Below are positions 1 through 7,144 of a DNA stretch of 7,144 nucleotides, one piece after another (position 1 is the first letter of the stretch; every line of letters starts with the position of its first letter). This stretch comes from Candidatus Omnitrophota bacterium (GTDB lineage Bacteria; Omnitrophota; JACPQZ01), in the NCBI GenBank assembly GCA_016190205.1, contig JACPQZ010000009.1, forward strand, positions 1-7,144, written 5' to 3'. A program made the translations under genes and the position numbers. Below the pieces are notes generated by a model that was given only the letters and a program-made list of their open reading frames with translations, had not been told where the DNA came from and searched no databases.

Positions 1-203
1 CCAGATACCAGAGAGAAATGATGAAATTCGAAATACGAAATTCGAAGCACGAACAAATTCAAAATCCGAGATGTTGAACCACAGGTTCTGGGTTTCTAAT
101 TTCGAACTTCGATCTTCTTCGGATTTCGACATTCGAATTTCGGATTTGTCCTGGTATCTGGCATCTGGTATCTCCTGATTACTGGTATCTGGTATCTGGT
201 TAC
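1..203. repeat. Large imperfect inverted repeat made of heptamers
   Basis: This tract directly follows murE. The left arm (about 1-70) has the heptamers TTCGAAA (27-33), TACGAAA (34-40), TTCGAAG (41-47) and CACGAAC (48-54). The right arm (about 98-202) has the complementary family (TTCGAAC 101-107, TTCGATC 108-114, then units ending in TTCG from 115 to 142), followed by CTGGTAT units at 151-157, 165-171, 182-188 and 189-195, with CTGGCAT at 158-164. The outermost left end (CCAGATACCAG, 1-11) is complementary to the CTGGTATCTGG copies on the right, so the whole tract can fold back on itself. At the centre is a small hairpin, GAACC (76-80), ACA, GGTTC (84-88). No T-run follows, so it is not an ordinary intrinsic terminator. 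Function is unknown; a minus-strand reading frame crosses it without a stop. Confidence 0.85.
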
Positions 204-207
204 TCAT
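1..207 (-). CDS. Partial open frame coupled to the murE stop, repeat-derived, product unknown
   Basis: An ATG at 207-205 shares four bases with the murE stop (ATGA), the classic arrangement for translational coupling. From it 69 codons run to the left edge without a stop, starting MSNQIPDTSNQEIPDARYQD. The peptide is low in complexity and simply translates the heptamer repeats; it shows no domain that I recognise. In a dcw cluster murF would be the expected next gene, but nothing here resembles a MurF N-terminus. Two readings are open: a real downstream gene whose N-terminal part has been replaced or extended by the repeat, or a chance open frame, since the CCAGATA and CGAAATT heptamers contain no stop in any frame. 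I favour the second, weakly. Only sequence to the left can decide. Confidence 0.25.
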   Translation of the reverse strand, partial: MSNQIPDTSNQEIPDARYQDKSEIRMSKSEEDRSSKLETQNLWFNISDFEFVRASNFVFRISSFLSGIW

Positions 208-1655
208 GTTTTAACGAGCTCCTCAATAACGGCCCGGTCATTAAATGGATATTCGACGCCGCCGACGATTTGGGTCGTCTCATGGCCCTTGCCCGCCACC
301 AGAACCACGTCTCCGCGGCGGGCCATGCGGAGGGCGCGGGCGATGGCCTCTTGCCGCTCCGGAATCTCCAGACACCGGGGGCCGGACCCATTCATCCCCT
401 TTCGGATCTCGCCAATAATCGCGGCGGGGTCCTCGCTGCGCGGATTGTCGCTCGTCAGGATGACGAAATCCGACGCGCGGCCTGCGACATGGCCCATGCG
501 GGGGCGCTTGCCGCGGTCGCGCTCCCCCCCGCATCCAAATACGGTGATGAGACGCCTCTGCGTAAACGGCCGCAGGGTGGTCAGTACCTGTTTAAGGGCA
601 TCATCCGTGTGCGCATAGTCGACAAAAATGAAAAAGGGCGCCGCGTGTCCGCAGCGCTCAAGTCTTCCGGGCACCCCTTTGAAACCCGGCAAGGCCTGGA
701 TCAAGGCCTCGGGAGCTAGCCCCGCGCCCACACCGGCACCCAGCGCCGCCAGGGTATTGTACACATTGATGAGACCTATCAGCGGGCTCCGAACGGCAGT
801 GCGCCTGCCCGCATGCTCCAGCACCCATTCGGAACCTGTCAATTCCATGCCCTTGAGGTGAGCTACGAGACTGGCGCCCCGGCGCAATCCGTAGCTCAAC
901 GCCTTGCCTCGCGCAGCGCGCAGCAGGCGTCGGCCGTAGCGATCATCCGCGTTGATGACGGCCACGCGAGGTGACTGCGGTTTAGCGAACAACTGCCTCT
1001 TGGCCCTGAAATAACTTTCCATAGTCTTGTGATAGTCCAGGTGATCGCGCGTGAGATTGGTAAAGACGCTGCAGTGAAAATCAATGCCGCTCACGCGGCC
1101 CTGATCCAGGGCGTGCGAAGACACTTCCATGACAGCAGCCCGCATGCCTTCTTTTACCATGTCGGCGAAGAGGGAGTTGAGAAAGATGGCGTCAGGCGTC
1201 GTATGAGTGGCGGGGATCTCGTGCGAACCGGTCCGGTACAAGACGGTGCTGATCAAACCCGCTGGGCGGCCGCAGGACGAAAGCAGATGGGCGATGAGAG
1301 ATGCGGTGGTGGACTTCCCGTTGGTTCCGGTAACCCCAAAAATCTTAAGCCGGCTCGAAGCGGACTTAAAGTAGCGCCGGGCAATGAACCCAGCAGCTAT
1401 CCTCGAATGCTTGACGCGGACTTGAGTCACGTGCGAGGGGAGATCCAGCCAGCGCTCCACCACCAAGGCGCGGGCCCCCCGCTCCACCGCTTCTGGAGCG
1501 AACGCGTGGCCATCCGTGCGGGTTCCCCGCACAGCTATAAACAGCGAGCCCGCGCGGCACGTATGAGAGGAGAGGTTTAAGTCCTGGATCTCGACATGTT
1601 TGGGCCCCCGAAACTCGACCCGCTCGAGATCCTGCACAAGGTTGTGTAAAAACAA
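204..1655 (-). CDS. murE: UDP-N-acetylmuramoyl-L-alanyl-D-glutamate--2,6-diaminopimelate ligase (MurE)
   Basis: Cytoplasmic Mur ligase that adds the third stem-peptide residue to UDP-MurNAc-L-Ala-D-Glu using ATP. The 483-residue length is normal for the family. The N-terminal domain (about 1-100) is followed by the ATP-binding P-loop GTNGKST (110-116). The HTTPDA segment at 151-156, the MEVSSHALDQGR stretch around 176-187 and TNLTRDHLDYH at 199-209 are family hallmarks, and K219 in RAKRQLF is the likely carbamylated lysine. DNPR (403-406) and the later GKGHE (455-459) form the meso-diaminopimelate pocket, so the third residue is predicted to be meso-DAP rather than lysine. The start is a TTG at 1655, 19 bp after the ftsI stop; the alignment-like N-terminus (LHNLVQDLERVEFRG) fits this start, and the only Shine-Dalgarno candidate is a weak AGG. 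It is the last recognisable gene of the cluster before the left repeat tract. Confidence 0.97.
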   Translation of the reverse strand: MFLHNLVQDLERVEFRGPKHVEIQDLNLSSHTCRAGSLFIAVRGTRTDGHAFAPEAVERGARALVVERWLDLPSHVTQVRVKHSRIAAGFIARRYFKSASSRLKIFGVTGTNGKSTTASLIAHLLSSCGRPAGLISTVLYRTGSHEIPATHTTPDAIFLNSLFADMVKEGMRAAVMEVSSHALDQGRVSGIDFHCSVFTNLTRDHLDYHKTMESYFRAKRQLFAKPQSPRVAVINADDRYGRRLLRAARGKALSYGLRRGASLVAHLKGMELTGSEWVLEHAGRRTAVRSPLIGLINVYNTLAALGAGVGAGLAPEALIQALPGFKGVPGRLERCGHAAPFFIFVDYAHTDDALKQVLTTLRPFTQRRLITVFGCGGERDRGKRPRMGHVAGRASDFVILTSDNPRSEDPAAIIGEIRKGMNGSGPRCLEIPERQEAIARALRMARRGDVVLVAGKGHETTQIVGGVEYPFNDRAVIEELVKT

Positions 1656-1674
1656 GGGCGCCTGCCGCCAATAT

Positions 1675-3393
1675 CTAAAATGACTTCACCAGCCTGACCG
1701 GCTGATGACCCGTAAGTGACAAATACGCGAGACCCTGCTCCAAAATGCGCTTAAACACAGGGGCGCACACCGTGCCTCCGAAGTGTTCCGGCTTCGGCTC
1801 GTCTAGAATAACACAGATGACCATCTGCGGGGAAGAGACCGGCGCAAATCCGACAAAAACGGCGACGAAGTCTTCGTCAGAATAGCCCCGGGTGCCTTCC
1901 AGGATTTTCTGGGCTGTCCCGGTCTTGCCCGCGACTTCAAGCCCCTTCACCCGGGCGCGCTGGCCCGTCCCCTCCTCCACCACCCGCGTGAGAATTCCCT
2001 TTAAGAGCCGCGCCGACTCGGGGTTCATCACGACCCCCTGCGCTTGGGGCGCAAACGTTTCCAGGGTCCTCCCGTCAGCGGTCATGATGCGCTCCACGAG
2101 GCGGGGTTTCATCATGACCCCGTCGTTCGCCACTGCGGCCATGGCACACGTCATCTGGAGCGCCGTCGCAGACACCTCGTGACCCATGGGGATTGCCAAG
2201 AGAGAGGTCCCCGACCACTTCTCGGGAGAGGTAATGCTGCCCGCAGCTTCCCCCGGGAAATCTATCCCCGTGGGGCGGCCGAAGCCAAAACGCTGAATGG
2301 CCTGCCACAGCCGCTCGCTCCCCACCCGCTGGGCGACCTTGCTGGTCCCAATATTGCTCGATTTTATGAACACTTCCGGAAACGTCAGCCACCCGTGAGG
2401 CCGGTAATCATGCAAGGTATGGCCGGCCATGCGGTAGGCCCCGTTTTCACAGAAGACCTTTTCCTCCAGGGAGAAGGAGCCAGACTCCAAGGCCGCAGAG
2501 GCGGTGACTATCTTAAAGACAGATCCGGGCTCAAACATGTCGGTAACAGCGCGGTTCCGCCTCTTGTCCGCAGCCACGAGGCTGGCCCGGTTGGCGTCAA
2601 AGGTCGGGGCATTGGCACAGGCCAATACGCTCCCGTCCTTGGGGTCCAGAACGATTGCCGTACCGGCAATGGCATGGCTCGCCTCCACCGCTCGCACGAG
2701 CTCGCGCTCCACCACATCCTGAATTACCTGATCGATGGTGAGCACCACATGATGACCGTCTTGAGACGGAATGAAAAGCTCATCCCGGGCGCGCAGGGAG
2801 CGCCCGCGCGCATCGCGCTGAGTCATCCTCAAGCCCGGCCTTCCTGAAAGATGGGAATTGTAAAACAGTTCCACGCCCTCGATCCCCTGATTGTCGATGT
2901 CCACCCCCCCCAAGAGATGGGCCCCCAGGGTCTCCGCCGGATAGACGCGCTGCCATTCCGGGGTGAGCCCGATGGCAGGGTGCTGAAAGGATCGTAACTG
3001 TGCCTCCTCACGGCGGTCCAATTTGCGCTTGAGCCACACAAACTCCTTATCGCGCTCGAGACGGCCGCGAAGCCAGTCGGTATCTAAGTCAAGCATTCCG
3101 GCCAGCTTGAGCACCAAGCCTTCCCGCTCGCCCGGCGCAATATCCCGCGGGCAGGCGTAGGCAGAGAAAACTTCTATGGAGGTGGAAAGGATATTAAGCG
3201 TGCGGTCATACACATTCCCCCGCGAGGGAGAGAGAGGGATATCCACCCCGTGCTGACTCTTGGCATGCGCCTTCAGGCGAGGGCTTGGAAGAAGCTGTAA
3301 GGCCACGAGTCTGGAAAGCACGACGCAGGATAAAAAGCAATAACCGGCGAGGATAAAAAGAGAGCGCTTCGCAAAATGATTGAAATACCTCAA
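1675..3393 (-). CDS. ftsI: Peptidoglycan D,D-transpeptidase FtsI (PBP3, class B penicillin-binding protein)
   Basis: Inner-membrane, periplasm-facing transpeptidase that cross-links septal peptidoglycan in the divisome. The 572-residue protein has a short cytoplasmic N-terminus, one membrane anchor (about 11-35), the class B dimerisation motif RGNVYDR (58-64), and a C-terminal penicillin-binding domain with all three active-site motifs: SVFK with the nucleophile S291 and K294, SSN (345-347), and KTGT (490-493). It ends soon after the transpeptidase domain with no PASTA repeats, which favours FtsI over SpoVD/PBP2x-type proteins. The TTG start at 3393 overlaps the upstream ftsL-like stop in a TTGA junction, so translation is probably coupled; no strong Shine-Dalgarno sequence is visible. 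The position between ftsL and murE is the standard dcw order. Confidence 0.96.
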   Translation of the reverse strand: MRYFNHFAKRSLFILAGYCFLSCVVLSRLVALQLLPSPRLKAHAKSQHGVDIPLSPSRGNVYDRTLNILSTSIEVFSAYACPRDIAPGEREGLVLKLAGMLDLDTDWLRGRLERDKEFVWLKRKLDRREEAQLRSFQHPAIGLTPEWQRVYPAETLGAHLLGGVDIDNQGIEGVELFYNSHLSGRPGLRMTQRDARGRSLRARDELFIPSQDGHHVVLTIDQVIQDVVERELVRAVEASHAIAGTAIVLDPKDGSVLACANAPTFDANRASLVAADKRRNRAVTDMFEPGSVFKIVTASAALESGSFSLEEKVFCENGAYRMAGHTLHDYRPHGWLTFPEVFIKSSNIGTSKVAQRVGSERLWQAIQRFGFGRPTGIDFPGEAAGSITSPEKWSGTSLLAIPMGHEVSATALQMTCAMAAVANDGVMMKPRLVERIMTADGRTLETFAPQAQGVVMNPESARLLKGILTRVVEEGTGQRARVKGLEVAGKTGTAQKILEGTRGYSDEDFVAVFVGFAPVSSPQMVICVILDEPKPEHFGGTVCAPVFKRILEQGLAYLSLTGHQPVRLVKSF

Positions 3394-3740
3394 GGACGCG
3401 TCTTCTTCACCCCAAGCGTGAGGGCGCGGATCATCGGTTGAGTGACACCCTGCACAACGCGCCCAAGGGATTCGTCCTCATGCGCACGGCGCAAGACCCA
3501 GCGCGTTTCCTGCGGCCTGGCATTTAGCGCGCTGGAGGAACCCAGCCGGGCCATGAGCTCCTGCGGAGAATCCATGACCGCAAGCCTCCACTTGAGCTCC
3601 CGCTGTTCCGTTTCAAGACTGGCCACCTGTCTTTCCCGCTCACGGATGCTGTAACTTAAGTCGACCTGCTCGTTTTGGATCCAGACAGAAAAGCATCCCA
3701 GCGCACACGCACTGAAAATAAGGGCTATCTTACGCAGCAT
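3390..3740 (-). CDS. ftsL: FtsL-like cell division protein
   Basis: A 116-residue bitopic membrane protein: short basic N-terminus (MLRK), one membrane segment (about 4-21, IALIFSACALGCFSVWI), then a charged heptad-like region (about 22-65) predicted to form a coiled coil, with a SPQEL segment at 58-62 like the SPxxIE region that follows the coil in FtsL/FtsB proteins. In other bacteria FtsL forms a complex with FtsB and FtsQ that activates FtsWI. FtsL sequences are poorly conserved, so the name rests on topology, size and the slot between rsmH and ftsI. The ATG at 3740 lies inside the end of rsmH (11-bp overlap), which places the membrane segment right at the N-terminus as in the family; a longer in-frame extension to 3851 would merely translate rsmH DNA. 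The stop overlaps the ftsI start. Confidence 0.85.
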   Translation of the reverse strand: MLRKIALIFSACALGCFSVWIQNEQVDLSYSIRERERQVASLETEQRELKWRLAVMDSPQELMARLGSSSALNARPQETRWVLRRAHEDESLGRVVQGVTQPMIRALTLGVKKTRP

Positions 3741-4638
3741 CTTTAACCACCGCCCGAAGCCGGGCGCTCCGCGAACGTGGGTTACGCACAACTTCCTCGG
3801 GCTTGGGCCGCACCAAACGCGGCTCCCCATACCTCGCCCACCCGGACCCAACCCACTGGCGCATCTTTTCTTTCACGATGCGATCCTCCAAAGAGTGAAA
3901 GGAAATAACAGCGAGGCGGCCGCCGCTCGTCAAGCGCCCCCAAGACTCTTCCAGGGCCTGCTCCAGATTGGCGAGTTCATGATTCACAGCTATCCTCAAG
4001 GCTTGAAAAGTGCGGGTGGCGGGATCGATCCTTCCCCTTCCCTTACGGATATTTCTTTGAACGATTTGAGCCAGGTCGAGCGTGGTATTTAAGCTGCCCC
4101 CGCGCGCAGCCTTTACCAGCAAACGGGCCAGGAGCCGGGAATGACGTTCCCCGCCATAGCGGTAAAGAATATCTGCCAATTCCTCTTGGGAGGCGGAATG
4201 GAGGATGCCAAAGGCGGTCCGGGACTTTTCATCGGGATTCAAGCGCATGTCCAGAGGGCCCTCGATCCTGAAGCTAAAACCTCTCTGGGCGTCCTCGAGC
4301 TGCCGGCTGGACAGTCCCAGATCCATCAATACGCCGTTCACCCTGTCCACACCCACTTGGTCCAGCGAGTCGCTCAAACGGGCAAAGTTGGACCAAACGA
4401 GTGTCGTGATCTCCGAGAATGGGGCCAGTCTCGCCTCGGCCACGCTGAGTGACGCGCGGTCGCAGTCTATCCCGATGAGATGCCCCGTAGAACCCAGGCA
4501 CCTGGCTATTTCGTAAGCATGCCCCCCATCCCCGATGGTTAAGTCAACGATGGTCTCACCCGCGTGGGGACGGAGGGCATGCAGAACTTCATGTAAAAGA
4601 ACAGGGTTATGAATGGCTGAAGCTTCTGACCGCCGCAC
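3730..4638 (-). CDS. rsmH: 16S rRNA (cytosine(1402)-N(4))-methyltransferase RsmH (MraW)
   Basis: SAM-dependent enzyme that N4-methylates C1402 in the decoding centre of 16S rRNA. Visible family blocks, in order, are the N-terminal HNPVLLHEVL, the SAM-binding VDLTIGDGGHA loop, MDLGLSSRQLED followed by RGFSFR and GPLDMR, the ATRTFQALRIAVNHEL block, ISFHSLEDRIVK, and the C-terminal NPRSRSARLRAV. No ATG is in frame near the conserved N-terminus. I chose the GTG at 4638, which gives 302 residues (usual family size about 300-315) and puts the conserved HxPVLL block at residue 10. This start lies within the 3' end of the STAS gene (32-bp overlap). An ATT at 4613 is a less likely alternative. The 3' end overlaps ftsL. 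Confidence 0.95.
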   Translation of the reverse strand: MRRSEASAIHNPVLLHEVLHALRPHAGETIVDLTIGDGGHAYEIARCLGSTGHLIGIDCDRASLSVAEARLAPFSEITTLVWSNFARLSDSLDQVGVDRVNGVLMDLGLSSRQLEDAQRGFSFRIEGPLDMRLNPDEKSRTAFGILHSASQEELADILYRYGGERHSRLLARLLVKAARGGSLNTTLDLAQIVQRNIRKGRGRIDPATRTFQALRIAVNHELANLEQALEESWGRLTSGGRLAVISFHSLEDRIVKEKMRQWVGSGWARYGEPRLVRPKPEEVVRNPRSRSARLRAVVKDAA

Positions 4639-4957
4639 GTACCCCGTTGTAGACCTGCATGAGCTTGTCGGTGCCGGTCTTTTGAAAAATGCGCCTGACG
4701 GACGGCCGGGCACCCGCAAGCACCAGGTCCCCCTCCAGGTAACGGATCCAACCCAGGCTCTCTGCAAGAATCCCCAGGCCCGCCAAATCCACATGGCGGG
4801 CCTTATGGACGTCCAGCACCATGTGCACCAGATCCCTGCGCACCAGCCGTTCTATCCGGTTGCGAATCCGCACCATGCCGCTCGCGTTCATATCTCCCCC
4901 CACGTCCAGGATCTGAACGCGCGCGGCCTGCCCGTTCGTCTTGTCACTGCTCTTCAT
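4607..4957 (-). CDS. STAS-domain protein, anti-sigma factor antagonist-like
   Basis: A 116-residue single STAS domain. The beta-strand pattern RVQILDVGGDMNASG, the helix MVRIRNRIERLV, the strand HMVLDVHKA, the central loop VDLAGLGIL (56-64) and the C-terminal FQKTGTDKLMQVYNG (91-105) match the SpoIIAA/RsbV fold in order. In classical phosphorylated antagonists the loop reads DSSGLG with a serine target; here it is D57-L-A-G-L-G, with leucine and alanine in the two serine positions. A partner-kinase phosphoswitch at this site is therefore unlikely, and the domain may act as a constitutive binder or scaffold. The ATG at 4957 has an AGGTGA just upstream. It lies between mraZ and rsmH, which is not the textbook dcw order, and overlaps rsmH, so it should be co-expressed with the division genes. 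No sigma-regulatory kinase is in the window. Confidence 0.85.
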   Translation of the reverse strand: MKSSDKTNGQAARVQILDVGGDMNASGMVRIRNRIERLVRRDLVHMVLDVHKARHVDLAGLGILAESLGWIRYLEGDLVLAGARPSVRRIFQKTGTDKLMQVYNGVRAAVRSFSHS

Positions 4958-4995
4958 CTCTCACCTAGAGGTTCAGGCCCCGCACAGAACTTCAT
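4954..4995 (-). CDS. Possible 13-codon upstream ORF ending in the STAS start codon
   Basis: An ATG at 4995-4993, at the edge of the hairpin stem, opens a frame encoding MKFCAGPEPLGER. Its TGA (4956-4954) overlaps the ATG of the STAS gene as ATGA, in exact frame. This could give coupled translation of the STAS gene. No Shine-Dalgarno sequence precedes the small ORF, and an ORF this short may arise by chance, so the call is weak. Confidence 0.2.
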   Translation of the reverse strand: MKFCAGPEPLGER

Positions 4996-5002
4996 GCGGG
5001 GC
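4977..5002 (-). other. Perfect 8-bp hairpin in the leader of the STAS gene
   Basis: GCCCCGCA (4977-4984) and TGCGGGGC (4995-5002) are exact reverse complements with a 10-base loop. The structure sits 20-45 bases upstream of the STAS start. There is no T-run on the minus-strand 3' side, so it is not a standard intrinsic terminator; it could be an attenuation, RNA-processing or stability element between mraZ and the rest of the cluster. The 12-bp palindrome GAGCCCGGGCTC at 5022-5033 and a second CCCGGG at 5039-5044 lie in the same 99-bp gap. Confidence 0.7.
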
Positions 5003-5056
5003 GGGTAGAGACCCACACTTCGAGCCCGGGCTCCCACACCCGGGATCCTGGCAACC

Positions 5057-5503
5057 CTACCCTTCCCCCCTGTCTACAAGCTTTTCAGCGATGTCCTCAA
5101 AAGAGTCCTTCGCCTGCTCGTAGTAACGCTTCCACTCATCGAGGTCCCAGATCTCAATGCGGTTAGAGACCCCGATCACCATCACATCCTTCTTAATGCC
5201 TGCATAGCTCTTCAAGTAGTCCGGCAGGAGGATGCGCCCCTGCTTGTCGCACAACACGTCACAGGCACCTGAAAAATAAAGCCGGTTGAATTTTCTTGAT
5301 TCCGTCTTTGTGAACGACATGTTCTTGAAAACCCGTTCCTGATTCTTCCATTCTTCCTCGGTGAAGACGAAGAGACAGCGGTCCAATCCCCGCGTGACAT
5401 AAAACTTCTCGCAGTATTGTTCTTTAAAGACCTCGCGCAGCTTGGCCGGAATAATAAGCCTTCCCTTGCGGTCGAGGGTGTGCTCATATTCACCATAAAA
5501 CAC
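5057..5503 (-). CDS. mraZ: Transcriptional regulator MraZ
   Basis: DNA-binding regulator of the dcw cluster, acting as a ring-shaped oligomer. The 148-residue length is typical. It carries two SpoVT-AbrB-like halves: the first begins MFYGEYEHTLDRKGRLIIPA (1-20) and the second LYFSGACDVLCDKQGRILLP (75-94). Each half has the signature D-x-x-G-R motif (DRKGR at 11-15, DKQGR at 86-90). The GTG start at 5503 reproduces the conserved N-terminus exactly and follows a GGAGA Shine-Dalgarno sequence by 8 bases. It is the first gene behind a strong promoter with GTGG operator boxes (5512-5541), which suggests autoregulation. A 99-bp structured gap separates it from the STAS gene. Confidence 0.97.
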   Translation of the reverse strand: MFYGEYEHTLDRKGRLIIPAKLREVFKEQYCEKFYVTRGLDRCLFVFTEEEWKNQERVFKNMSFTKTESRKFNRLYFSGACDVLCDKQGRILLPDYLKSYAGIKKDVMVIGVSNRIEIWDLDEWKRYYEQAKDSFEDIAEKLVDRGEG

Positions 5504-5511
5504 TTATAAAT

Positions 5512-5541
5512 TCTCCACTTTCCCCCACTTATTACCACAAA
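5512..5541 (-). promoter_or_regulatory. MraZ operator: three GTGG boxes at 10-bp spacing
   Basis: On the minus strand three consecutive 10-mers, TTTGTGGTAA, TAAGTGGGGG and AAAGTGGAGA, place GTGG at 5538, 5528 and 5518, one helical turn apart. A fourth GTGGG (5551-5547) lies in the promoter spacer, 13 bp further up. MraZ operators described in other bacteria are also direct TGGG- or AAAGTG-type repeats with 10-bp period. The boxes abut the -10 element and cover the expected transcription start, so bound MraZ should block RNA polymerase. The third box also contains the mraZ ribosome binding site. Confidence 0.88.
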
Positions 5542-5569
5542 GTATACCCACTTGCGCAACCCCTGTCAA
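5541..5569 (-). promoter_or_regulatory. Sigma70-type promoter of mraZ and the dcw operon
   Basis: The -35 element TTGACA (5569-5564) matches consensus exactly and is followed by a 17-bp spacer and the -10 element TATACT (5546-5541), one mismatch from TATAAT. Transcription is predicted to start near 5534, giving a leader of about 30 bases before the mraZ GTG. The DNA just upstream (about 5571-5640) is strikingly AT-rich and could act as an UP element. Confidence 0.88.
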
Positions 5570-5570
5570 G

Positions 5571-5676
5571 TAAATAGTTTAAATCTATTTTCATATTAGA
5601 AATAAGGGAGAAATATCTAAATATAGTGGCGATCTGAAGGGAAATGCGAACTTTTGGCTATATGTTGTGGAGGAGC
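5571..5676. other. AT-rich spacer between the RNase HI gene and the mraZ promoter
   Basis: The tract is far richer in A and T than the surrounding genes, especially at 5571-5640. It contains only a weak 6-bp inverted repeat (AAATAG at 5572-5577 and CTATTT at 5585-5590), too weak to call a terminator. I see no ORF or heptamer repeat in it. It most likely serves as upstream promoter DNA for mraZ. Confidence 0.5.
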
Positions 5677-6096
5677 CTAACTGGAGGAGGACTTTTGCTC
5701 TGCGGCCTGCTGGGCGAGTTTATCAGCCGCTTTATTCAGTCCCCGGGGAATGTGGCGAACTGAAAGTTTTGTAAAGAGTGGAGCGATGTTCCTGTAGATG
5801 CCGTAAAACTGCTTGAGGTCCTCATCTTTAACCTTGTACTGGCCGTTTACCTGTTGTGCAACGAGTTCTGAATCGGTGAGCACTTCCAGATGTTTGACAC
5901 CAAACTGCACGGCCTCCAGCAAACCTAAGATGAGGGCGCGGTACTCTGCCACGTTATTCGTGGCCATCCCAATATAGTCACTGCGCTCGCTTAAGGTTTC
6001 ACCCCGCGCATCCTTGAGCACCGCCCCTGCCCCCGACGGCCCCGGGTTTCCAATGGAGGCACCGTCTATGTACACCTGGTAAAGGCCTTCGCTCAC
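5677..6096 (-). CDS. RNase HI-family protein
   Basis: A 139-residue protein with the RNase H fold; it should cleave the RNA strand of RNA-DNA hybrids in the cytoplasm. The four catalytic acids are all present: D11 in YIDGAS, E51 in NNVAEYRAL, D75 in LTDSELV and D125 in NKAADKLA. The segment QVNGQYKVKDEDL (82-94) and the IPRGLNKAAD region (116-125) match the compact RnhA-like group that lacks the basic protrusion of E. coli RNase HI. The serine-rich tail (136-139) is not conserved family sequence. The GTG start at 6096 follows AGGAG by 4 bases. It is transcribed towards mraZ, but 173 bp and a new promoter separate the two genes. The sequence does not show whether it is a true RNase HI or a divergent paralogue. 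Confidence 0.92.
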   Translation of the reverse strand: MSEGLYQVYIDGASIGNPGPSGAGAVLKDARGETLSERSDYIGMATNNVAEYRALILGLLEAVQFGVKHLEVLTDSELVAQQVNGQYKVKDEDLKQFYGIYRNIAPLFTKLSVRHIPRGLNKAADKLAQQAAEQKSSSS

Positions 6097-6116
6097 TTGA
6101 CTCCTCTCTCGTCAAC

Positions 6117-6309
6117 CGCTTGTCGTAAGTAGTGTGTGATGTGTGGTGAGACCAGGCTCATCACTCACCCCTCAACACTCACCCCTACTTGCGTATCTCG
6201 TATCTCGTGAAGCGTATCTCGCAAGCCATCACTCGTCTAGCGCCTGTCGTGAGGGGTGTGCGATGGGTGGTGAGACGGACGCATCACTCTCCACTCAACA
6301 CTCACGACA
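6117..6309. repeat. Duplicated inverted-repeat element joined by a heptamer array
   Basis: Two related copies, A (6121-6186) and B (6245-6309), both begin TGTCGT and share the segments GGTGAGAC, CATCACTC and CTCAACACTCAC, differing by point changes and a 1-base indel. Each folds on itself: in copy B, TGTCGTGAG (6245-6253) and CTCACGACA (6301-6309) are exact reverse complements; in copy A, 6125-6150 pairs imperfectly with 6157-6182 (18 of 26 positions). From 6157 to 6226 the sequence is ten heptamers in one unbroken register, moving from CTCANNN units to CGTATCT units (6192, 6199, 6213). A smaller inverted repeat, CTTGCG (6188-6193) and CGCAAG (6220-6225), lies between the copies. The element fills the whole gap between the zinc-ribbon and RNase HI genes; it has no T-run and no ORF of note. 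Confidence 0.85.
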
Positions 6310-6316
6310 GACGCGG

Positions 6317-7033
6317 CTATTCCTCACAGTAAAGAATGCGGCTGCAACGCTCGCACGCGATGATCTCCCGCGAGCGCTTGAGCTCGTTGATGACCTGGGG
6401 GGGCAAATGGGTATGGCACCCCCCGCAGGCATCACCCTGGATGGGGACAAGCGCTGAACCGGCACGGTTCGCGAGCACCCTTTCGTAGTTCTTGAGGACC
6501 AGCGGGTCAAGGGAAGGAACCATCTGCTTCCGTTTTTCGTTAAGCTGCGTGAGCTCTGCTTCCGCAGTCTTTCTTTCTTCTCCCAAGACAAGCTCTTCTC
6601 CTTGAACCCTCTTCTCTTCTTGTGCGAAGCGCTGACGCTCCTCCGCCACCCGCGCAGCGGCCCTGTCGATCTCATCAAACAAATGGAGGATTTCCTCCTC
6701 CAGCATGGAATTATCCGCCTTCAGACCATCGATCTCGGTTTGGAGGGCGGAGTACTCCTTATTGGACTTGACCTGCATCTGTTGTCCCTGATACTTTCGT
6801 ACATTTTCTTCTTTGCCGGAAAGGTCCATCTCCTTCTCTTTGCGCTCCATCTGCAGCTGTTTTAACCGCTCCTCGAGCATCGTTAAATTTGCGCGCACCC
6901 CTTGCAACGTCTTACGCAATACCTCCACCCTCCGCGGGTGCTCTTCCACGACCCGGCGCCGGGCATAAATCTGGGCATCCAGTTTGTGCAATTCAACGAG
7001 CTTCACCAGCTGGGCCTTCACGTCAACCATCAC
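6317..7033 (-). CDS. Coiled-coil zinc-ribbon protein, CT398-like (C4-type zinc ribbon domain)
   Basis: A 238-residue soluble protein with a long charged coiled coil (about 5-180) and a C-terminal zinc ribbon with CGGC (C203, C206) and CERC (C227, C230) as the four ligands. The segment VKSNKEYSALQTEI (88-101) is the conserved block of the CT398/YbgI-neighbour zinc-ribbon family. In Chlamydia CT398 has been linked to sigma-54 and flagellar-type secretion proteins; whether that applies here is unknown. The start may be the GTG at 7033 or the adjacent ATG at 7030; a clear TTAGGAG Shine-Dalgarno sequence (7050-7044) ends 10 bases before the GTG and 13 before the ATG, which slightly favours GTG. 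It lies upstream of the RNase HI gene on the same strand, with a 220-bp repeat tract between. Confidence 0.9.
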   Translation of the reverse strand: MMVDVKAQLVKLVELHKLDAQIYARRRVVEEHPRRVEVLRKTLQGVRANLTMLEERLKQLQMERKEKEMDLSGKEENVRKYQGQQMQVKSNKEYSALQTEIDGLKADNSMLEEEILHLFDEIDRAAARVAEERQRFAQEEKRVQGEELVLGEERKTAEAELTQLNEKRKQMVPSLDPLVLKNYERVLANRAGSALVPIQGDACGGCHTHLPPQVINELKRSREIIACERCSRILYCEE

Positions 7034-7064
7034 TTGCCAGTGACTCCTAAATAAATGAGTCGAT

Positions 7065-7144
7065 TAACCACTTCGGTTATCGGTTTTCGGTGATCGGTTA
7101 TCGCCAATTCGTTTATCGGTTTTCGGTGATCGGTTATCGCAAGC
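7065..7144. repeat. TCGNNNN heptamer array with an exact 28-bp direct repeat
   Basis: From about 7073 to the right edge the DNA is a run of heptamers starting TCG: TCGGTTA, TCGGTTT, TCGGTGA, TCGGTTA, TCGCCAA, then after one extra base TCGTTTA and the same series again. As a result 7077-7104 and 7113-7140 are identical 28-bp direct repeats with a 36-bp period (five heptamers plus one base). At its left end CGATTAACC (7061-7069) can pair imperfectly with GGTTATCG (7075-7082). The array lies just upstream of the zinc-ribbon gene, continues beyond the window and leaves no recognisable promoter in view. Confidence 0.85.

Follow-up and report, generated by a model that had tools for sequence, protein, structure and literature searches.

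An excess of heptameric repeats between bacterial genes has been recognized for a long time, polymerase slippage being no more than a guess at their origin. The S23 protein, or 23S rRNA intervening-sequence protein (S23/IVP), represents a widespread family whose structure has been solved for about twenty years and whose function, to our knowledge, is not known. Here, we analyze a stretch of DNA of 7144 bases (the window), which is the whole of contig C74 of a 1.65 Mb draft Candidatus Omnitrophota genome, and in which three intergenic tracts are composed of units of seven bases (heptads) with different letters. It is probable, in our view, that these tracts are arms of dispersed elements which in their complete form enclose an S23 gene, and that the period they share is a recognition rule of the S23 protein. 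The protein would thus gain a candidate nucleic-acid partner, the sequence of which should be predictable from the flanks of any S23 gene, and the link would explain how a single period can run through unrelated repeat families.

The period of seven is a property of the intergenic DNA of the genome as a whole. In a 396 kb sample, intergenic autocorrelation was 0.33-0.34 at lag 7, as compared with 0.25-0.26 at adjacent lags, with harmonics at lags 14 and 21, and coding DNA had a signal at lag 3 only. Within 731 kb, 261 intergenic tracts of period 7 were counted, as compared with 0-4 tracts at any one of periods 5, 6, 8-13 and 15; since the contigs of this sample were partly picked for holding pattern hits, the density of tracts is biased, while the comparison between periods is unbiased. 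Grouped by their commonest unit, the 261 tracts form about 72 heptamer families. The pattern CTGGTATCTGGTATCTGG, with at most two mismatches, has 175 matches, and its mirror control has none. The initial annotation of the window had argued that the shared period called for a common cause, and would have counted this as refuted if the genome lacked a dominant peak at 7 or if its families differed in period; autocorrelation and tract counts both came out in favor of the argument. A clear excess of period 7 was also found in three further sampled Omnitrophota (G056, G016 and G035), and none was found in most other sampled Omnitrophota, or in 75 loci from other phyla that had been fetched for an unrelated gene. 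Heptad elements lie near the ends of contigs C12, C28, C37, C60, C71 and C74; they probably break the assembly, and their number is therefore underestimated.

S23 genes between heptad arms

The genome holds five S23 genes (PF05635; S23/23S rRNA intervening-sequence protein, a four-helix bundle), four of which lie between heptad arms, each of them between arms of another family (GCGTAC, CGTGCTT, CTCANNN and ACCAGNN). In addition, the loop of a cassette at C24:38941-39223 reads as the start of an S23 protein. This cassette closely resembles a complete ACCAG element some 1.1 kb further downstream, but lacks the middle of the gene; it is an internal-deletion derivative that keeps both arms as well as the start of the open reading frame (ORF), and its inverted repeats are those of the gene-bearing parent (C24:40299-40613).

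The copies in the window carry no S23 gene themselves, and several of their tracts match the flanks of S23 genes elsewhere. Compared with the arms around this genome's S23 gene at C24:40299-40613, the CTGGT arm at 151-202 scores 27 (null maximum 20). The CGTATCT array scores 19, 17 and 17 (null maximum 14) against L307, L229 and L226, respectively, all of them S23 loci from other Omnitrophota. The GTGAG part of a composite hairpin in the window matches an arm of the S23 gene at C31:33670-33984 with a score of 14 (null maximum 12), and the CTCA array reaches 17 against the S23 locus L253, which equals the null maximum. When all families are taken together, the heptad tracts of the genome score 15.9 against foreign S23 flanks, and column-permuted tracts score 13.3 (p = 1e-5). 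Searching foreign S23 flanks for exact heptamers of the genome's families yielded only a weak excess (0.76 vs 0.62), because S23 flanks contain most heptamers.

The association extends well beyond this genome. Among 33 usable Omnitrophota S23 loci, a left-right inverted repeat exceeds every shuffle in 30, a period-7 tract lies within 220 nt in all 33, and an inverted repeat of at least 15 is present in 28, as compared with 6 of 173 control genes of the same size. In 26 loci from other phyla, comprising Chloroflexota, Bacteroidota, Kiritimatiellota, deltaproteobacterial lineages, Abditibacteriaceae, Patescibacteria and others, the inverted repeat was found in 25 and the period-7 tract in 22 (controls, 0/52 and 4/52, respectively). 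Pooling 119 S23 loci from 57 genomes, we found inverted repeats of at least 15 in 97, against 6 of 225 controls (Fisher p = 1e-55). The dominant period of the flanks was 7 in 98 of the 119 loci and 8 in a further 15; left and right flanks mostly had the same one, and shuffled flanks gave a flat distribution. Rarer flank periods are 6 (L269), 9 (L259 and L304) and about 10 (L261). Twelve S23 loci on named plasmids, 11 of them cyanobacterial and one from Azospirillum, were also analyzed; the dominant period is 7 in all 12, and the inverted repeat exceeds the shuffles in 11. On two cyanobacterial plasmids (L337, NZ_CP112875.1; L347, NC_019429.1), an S23 gene with its heptad arms is situated between cas6 and cas4. 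S23 genes are co-directional with both neighbors in 34 of 45 cases, against 229 of 248 for the Omnitrophota baseline, a comparison that was set aside because the two sets differ in phylum.

Period, letters and unit number in relation to the S23 protein

Both the length and the letters of the repeat vary with the protein. The loci of period 8 cluster on the S23 tree, requiring 9 changes as compared with a shuffled mean of 11.6, a value as low being reached in 2 of 500 shuffles. Periods 7 and 8 occur together in seven genomes, which is not expected of a property of the host polymerase. Between genomes, the similarity of arms rises with the identity of the S23 proteins, from a score of about 4.9 below 50% identity to 13.6 at 60-80% (Mantel r 0.21, null sd 0.028). 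Four-fold degenerate sites in these pairs have an identity of 0.30, which is about random, and outer flanks score 8.1, so that something other than recent descent keeps the letters of the arms. Units of ACCAG type are common to a clade of S23 proteins comprising L212 of this genome, L311 and L312, which explains the presence of an ACCAG unit in distant families of the phylum. The evolution of the S23 protein appears to set both repeat length and repeat letters.

The anatomy of the hairpins is likewise phased. Mismatches between arms recur every 7, 14 and 21 bp, even when the commonest family is excluded, and in the stems of S23 loci they recur at the period of the element itself (lag 7, z 7.1; lag 8, z 3.2). 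Adjacency of variable positions has a modest effect within single tracts and gives a clear pattern across arms. The hairpins are long, imperfect and nested, one family forming an outer shell that encloses another. In the 731 kb, the CTGGT family follows one fixed plan in 32 cassettes: an arm of four units and then three, with a linker of 5 or 6 nt between them, is followed by a variable loop and by its own mirror image. The median arm of 33 nt equals five cores of 5 nt plus four spacers of 2 nt, and the number of units per flank peaks at five (71 of 176), against 2-3 in shuffled flanks; under a stricter rule, 53 flanks have five units and 9 have six. The solved relative 2gsc has five chains, and S23p has been described as a homopentamer (PMC4990558).

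These features suggest a common organization of S23 elements. In its complete form, such an element has a left arm, in most cases with about five units of 7 nt, an S23/IVP gene (PF05635; TIGR02436, "four helix bundle protein") about 35 nt inside, and a complementary right arm. The protein would bind the hairpin of its own element in the form of RNA or single-stranded DNA, the pentamer engaging about five phased duplexes of about 5 bp between which the 2-nt spacers are weakly paired, with one unit for each subunit. Different S23 lineages retain their own heptamer letters, and some have a pitch of 8. The copies in the window are best described as gene-less, non-autonomous and frequently nested derivatives resembling miniature inverted-repeat transposable elements (MITEs), which may have spread since their arms were retained. 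We infer the mobility of the elements from their dispersal, because direct repeats at the ends of the 32 cassettes show no clear excess that would point to target-site duplication, and no empty site was seen.

The main competing explanation is that slippage during replication inherently favors seven bases, for example through the contact size of the polymerase, a proposal for bacterial heptameric repeats that is quoted in PMC4692102. Arrays would then form anywhere, and S23 genes would be bystanders. Among indels of at least 3 between homologous copies, 38 are of size 7, 39 of size 3, 10 of size 6 and 4 of size 8, with a few of 14, and this peak at 7, together with the high diversity of heptamer families, is what slippage would produce. 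However, several findings are not predicted by slippage: hairpins enclose S23 genes; some S23 lineages have a period of 8 in genomes where period 7 is present as well; heptamer letters follow the protein; mismatches are restricted to fixed phases; and 32 dispersed cassettes have one and the same arm architecture. We consider it unlikely and reject slippage alone, retaining it only as a source of gain and loss of units: whole-unit changes by 7 occur, and probably tune the length of the arrays. Of the three causes put forward in the initial annotation, slippage and a heptamer-adding replication mechanism do not fit as the main cause, given the S23 genes in the arms, the letters following S23 and the period of 8 alongside 7, and a "selected structural spacing" comes nearest to what is found.

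Two further explanations would assign the tracts to other partners. Repetitive extragenic palindromic (REP) sequences are moved by a REP-associated tyrosine transposase (RAYT), and if a Y1 tyrosine transposase encoded elsewhere moved the heptad palindromes, S23 would be a passenger gene. The genome does have four Y1 transposase genes, imperfect palindromes are present in many intergenic copies, and target-site duplication is lacking, all of which suit such a system. Nevertheless, no pair of heptad arms encloses any of the four Y1 loci (a single tract is near two of them, and none is near the other two), and letters and pitch follow S23; the RAYT transposase was therefore rejected as the heptad partner, and we regard this origin as quite unlikely. 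Alternatively, the tracts may be host sites for regulation or RNA stability, such as terminators or translational control sites, which S23 came to bind. Tracts lying between co-directional genes and strong predicted hairpins are in keeping with this, but the distances to stops and starts are highly variable, the hairpins are nested, and S23 genes lie within the hairpins and not elsewhere, making this origin very unlikely. A leakage of classical rRNA intervening sequence (IVS) elements into intergenic DNA, with the heptads as a chance feature of the phylum, shares the protein family and the bordering stem (PMC4990558), but is highly improbable given that an Rfam scan placed none of 40 S23 loci in an rRNA gene and that heptads accompany S23 genes across many phyla as well as on plasmids of cyanobacteria.

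Several observations weigh against assigning the heptad tracts to S23 elements. Just 154 of the 261 tracts lie at least half inside a detected ungapped inverted-repeat arm, and about 13 of the 119 S23 loci, including L213 of this genome, have no flanking repeat beyond shuffles. The S23 loci examined are skewed to the higher-scoring ones. The TTCGAA and TCGGT families have no S23 partner scoring above the null of the column-permuted control. The S23 tree comprises 105 columns with many unresolved forks and requires 8-9 changes for period 8, so that the pitch follows the protein loosely. Common descent may account for some of the arm similarity among related elements, although saturation of the four-fold sites argues against that. 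The absence of target-site duplications and of empty sites, already mentioned, belongs here as well.

Layout of the window

The window contains part of a division and cell-wall cluster, with murE (204-1655), a division penicillin-binding protein of FtsI/SpoVD type (1675-3393), a small ftsL-like frame, rsmH, a STAS protein and mraZ (5057-5503), as well as genes for a ribonuclease HI family protein (5677-6096) and a CdsZ-like zinc-ribbon protein (6317-7033), all those given with coordinates so far being on the minus strand. The STAS gene, of the anti-sigma factor antagonist type, occupies 4607-4957, between mraZ and rsmH. The division penicillin-binding protein has its closest homologs in Omnitrophota. 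Three heptad tracts lie between or beside these genes. All three had been reported in the initial annotation and are present at the coordinates given there, Tandem Repeats Finder giving period 7 at 23-53, 93-147, 151-200, 6157-6186, 6192-6208 and 7073-7139; their placement as inverted repeats holds for the first two, and the third reaches the contig end. No Rfam family was found over the heptad tracts of the window.

The first tract is an ACCAG(NN)/CTGGT(NN) hairpin element at 1-213, truncated at its left end by the contig start. It consists of a left-arm remnant (1-13), a loop (14-150) and a right arm (about 151-203) of three units, a short linker and four units, with an inner TTCGAA-type heptad arm on either side (left, 18-59; right, 93-150). 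A fuller version of the same locus is found on contig C12, so that the locus beside murE exists in two versions, window 1-213 and C12:1-358 (L208/L009). In the C12 version, the inner heptad array contains an extra palindrome of about 36 bp (TCCGCCCGAGGCGGATCCGCCGGG...). This palindrome is likewise present in the intergenic stretch L203:6321-6791, and the difference between the two versions is probably strain variation.

The second tract is a composite hairpin at 6125-6316, between the CdsZ-like and RNase HI genes, in which GTGNNNN/CTCANNN arms (about 6125-6150, 6157-6187, 6247-6275 and 6285-6314) surround a nested array of CGTATCT heptads (6192-6226). The segment 6240-6269 pairs with 6285-6314 as an inverted repeat, and the predicted fold of 6097-6316 has a minimum free energy of -80.7. 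Copies of 123 bp of this hairpin occur elsewhere in the genome with up to 90% identity. The third tract (7068-7144) consists of TCGGTNN heptads, many further copies of which are present in the genome; its periodic part (7073-7139) doubles as a 36-bp direct duplication (7068-7140), and its partner arm cannot be seen because the tract runs into the contig end.

Other observations concern the surroundings of heptads elsewhere in the genome. On C59 (L055:7000-8900), tRNA genes are flanked by heptad tracts of the GCGTAC and GTGAG types, and a 6S RNA is located at 480-662 of L055. GCGTAC heptads extend into two pseudopilin-like frames on C13 (L209:3-221 and L209:354-836), whose N-termini are seven-residue repeats (TQYAVRS); heptads at this locus may have been recruited into coding sequence. 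The genome also carries a second repeat of about 510-570 nt, devoid of heptads, at C70:94490-95000 with 33 other matches, further examples being C49:7343-7854, C15:4550-5120, C36:5419-5959 and C59:12081-12629. Its long copies are 74-92% identical, with variation clustered in short segments, and it has no Rfam match at the gathering threshold; it appears to be a structured RNA, or an element, present in multiple copies.

Comparison with known systems

Among the closest described systems are the intervening sequences of 23S rRNA. IVS with an S23 ORF and complementary borders are described from the rRNA genes of Coxiella and Leptospira (PMC4990558), and S23 ORFs also occur within rRNA insertions of the candidate phyla radiation (PMC11270868). 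As in S23 elements, the S23/IVP ORF lies inside a stem of complementary borders, and IVS are deemed selfish and patchily spread. Complete S23 elements thus have the PF05635 gene and the complementary stem of an IVS, but not its insertion in rRNA: they sit between protein genes, with many gene-less copies per genome. Their arms also differ from IVS borders, as far as the latter can be compared by description, in being phased 7- or 8-nt units with letters following the protein; the papers searched yielded no description of heptads in IVS borders.

Heptameric repeats have been described as GGGANTN in Xanthomonas and GGGGA(T/C)T in Nostoc (PMC4692102). Like the tracts described here, they are intergenic, combine fixed and variable positions, usually have four units and often form inverted pairs. 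Unlike them, they were studied as G-quadruplexes, with one family per genome and no link drawn to S23, and most families here (CTGGTAT, TTCGAAA, CTCANNN and CGTATCT), having no runs of three G, lack the four G-tracts of a G-quadruplex. The solved S23p 2gsc is itself XCC0516 of Xanthomonas campestris. The TAACTGA repeats of Beggiatoaceae, for which translational control has been proposed (PMC4679880), are also intergenic heptamers in many copies, but they have one sequence, are direct and not inverted, and mostly lie right before start codons. For the heptameric repeats of Xanthomonas, Nostoc, Calothrix and Beggiatoaceae, slippage or regulation is suggested (PMC4692102, PMC4679880).

The short tandemly repeated repetitive (STRR) sequences of heterocystous cyanobacteria are tandem heptanucleotides in many intergenic places, with several families per genome, as here, where the host belongs to the Omnitrophota. 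We know of no protein associated with STRR. S23 genes on plasmids of Nostoc, Calothrix, Anabaena and other cyanobacteria sit between inverted heptad arrays. The initial annotation knew of no described mechanism by which several families in one genome would share a period; as to the families themselves, three of heptanucleotides had already been reported for Calothrix (cited in PMC4692102).

MITEs and REP sequences resemble the present elements in being small, palindromic, gene-less and dispersed, with a rarer gene-bearing form. The gene-bearing S23 form differs in that it has no transposase and no target-site duplication, and its arms are phased tandem units. With MITEs the elements have in common repeats shared with a gene-bearing parent (ACCAG family), but not target-site duplication (32 cassettes), and palindromes flanking a Y1 transposase gene, as in REP/RAYT systems, were not found at the four Y1 loci. 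The Avd protein of diversity-generating retroelements is a distant sequence relative of S23, its profile NF033474 matching S23 at E values of 3e-8 to 2e-4, under the curated cut-off; Avd works with a reverse transcriptase, of which a PF00078 search found none in this genome.

A word search of the open-access literature, its scope excluding subscription journals and preprints, found no text joining heptamers and S23. More tentatively than for the tracts of this genome, we suggest that S23/IVP genes with their heptad or octad hairpins might form an unrecognized, bacteria-wide class, in which a pentamer reads about five phased duplex units with lineage-specific letters and pitch, and that most unexplained heptameric repeats of bacteria, including those of cyanobacteria and Xanthomonas, might be its gene-less remains. 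If the recognition rule is confirmed, these elements would be more than a variant of the known IVS and heptamer systems.

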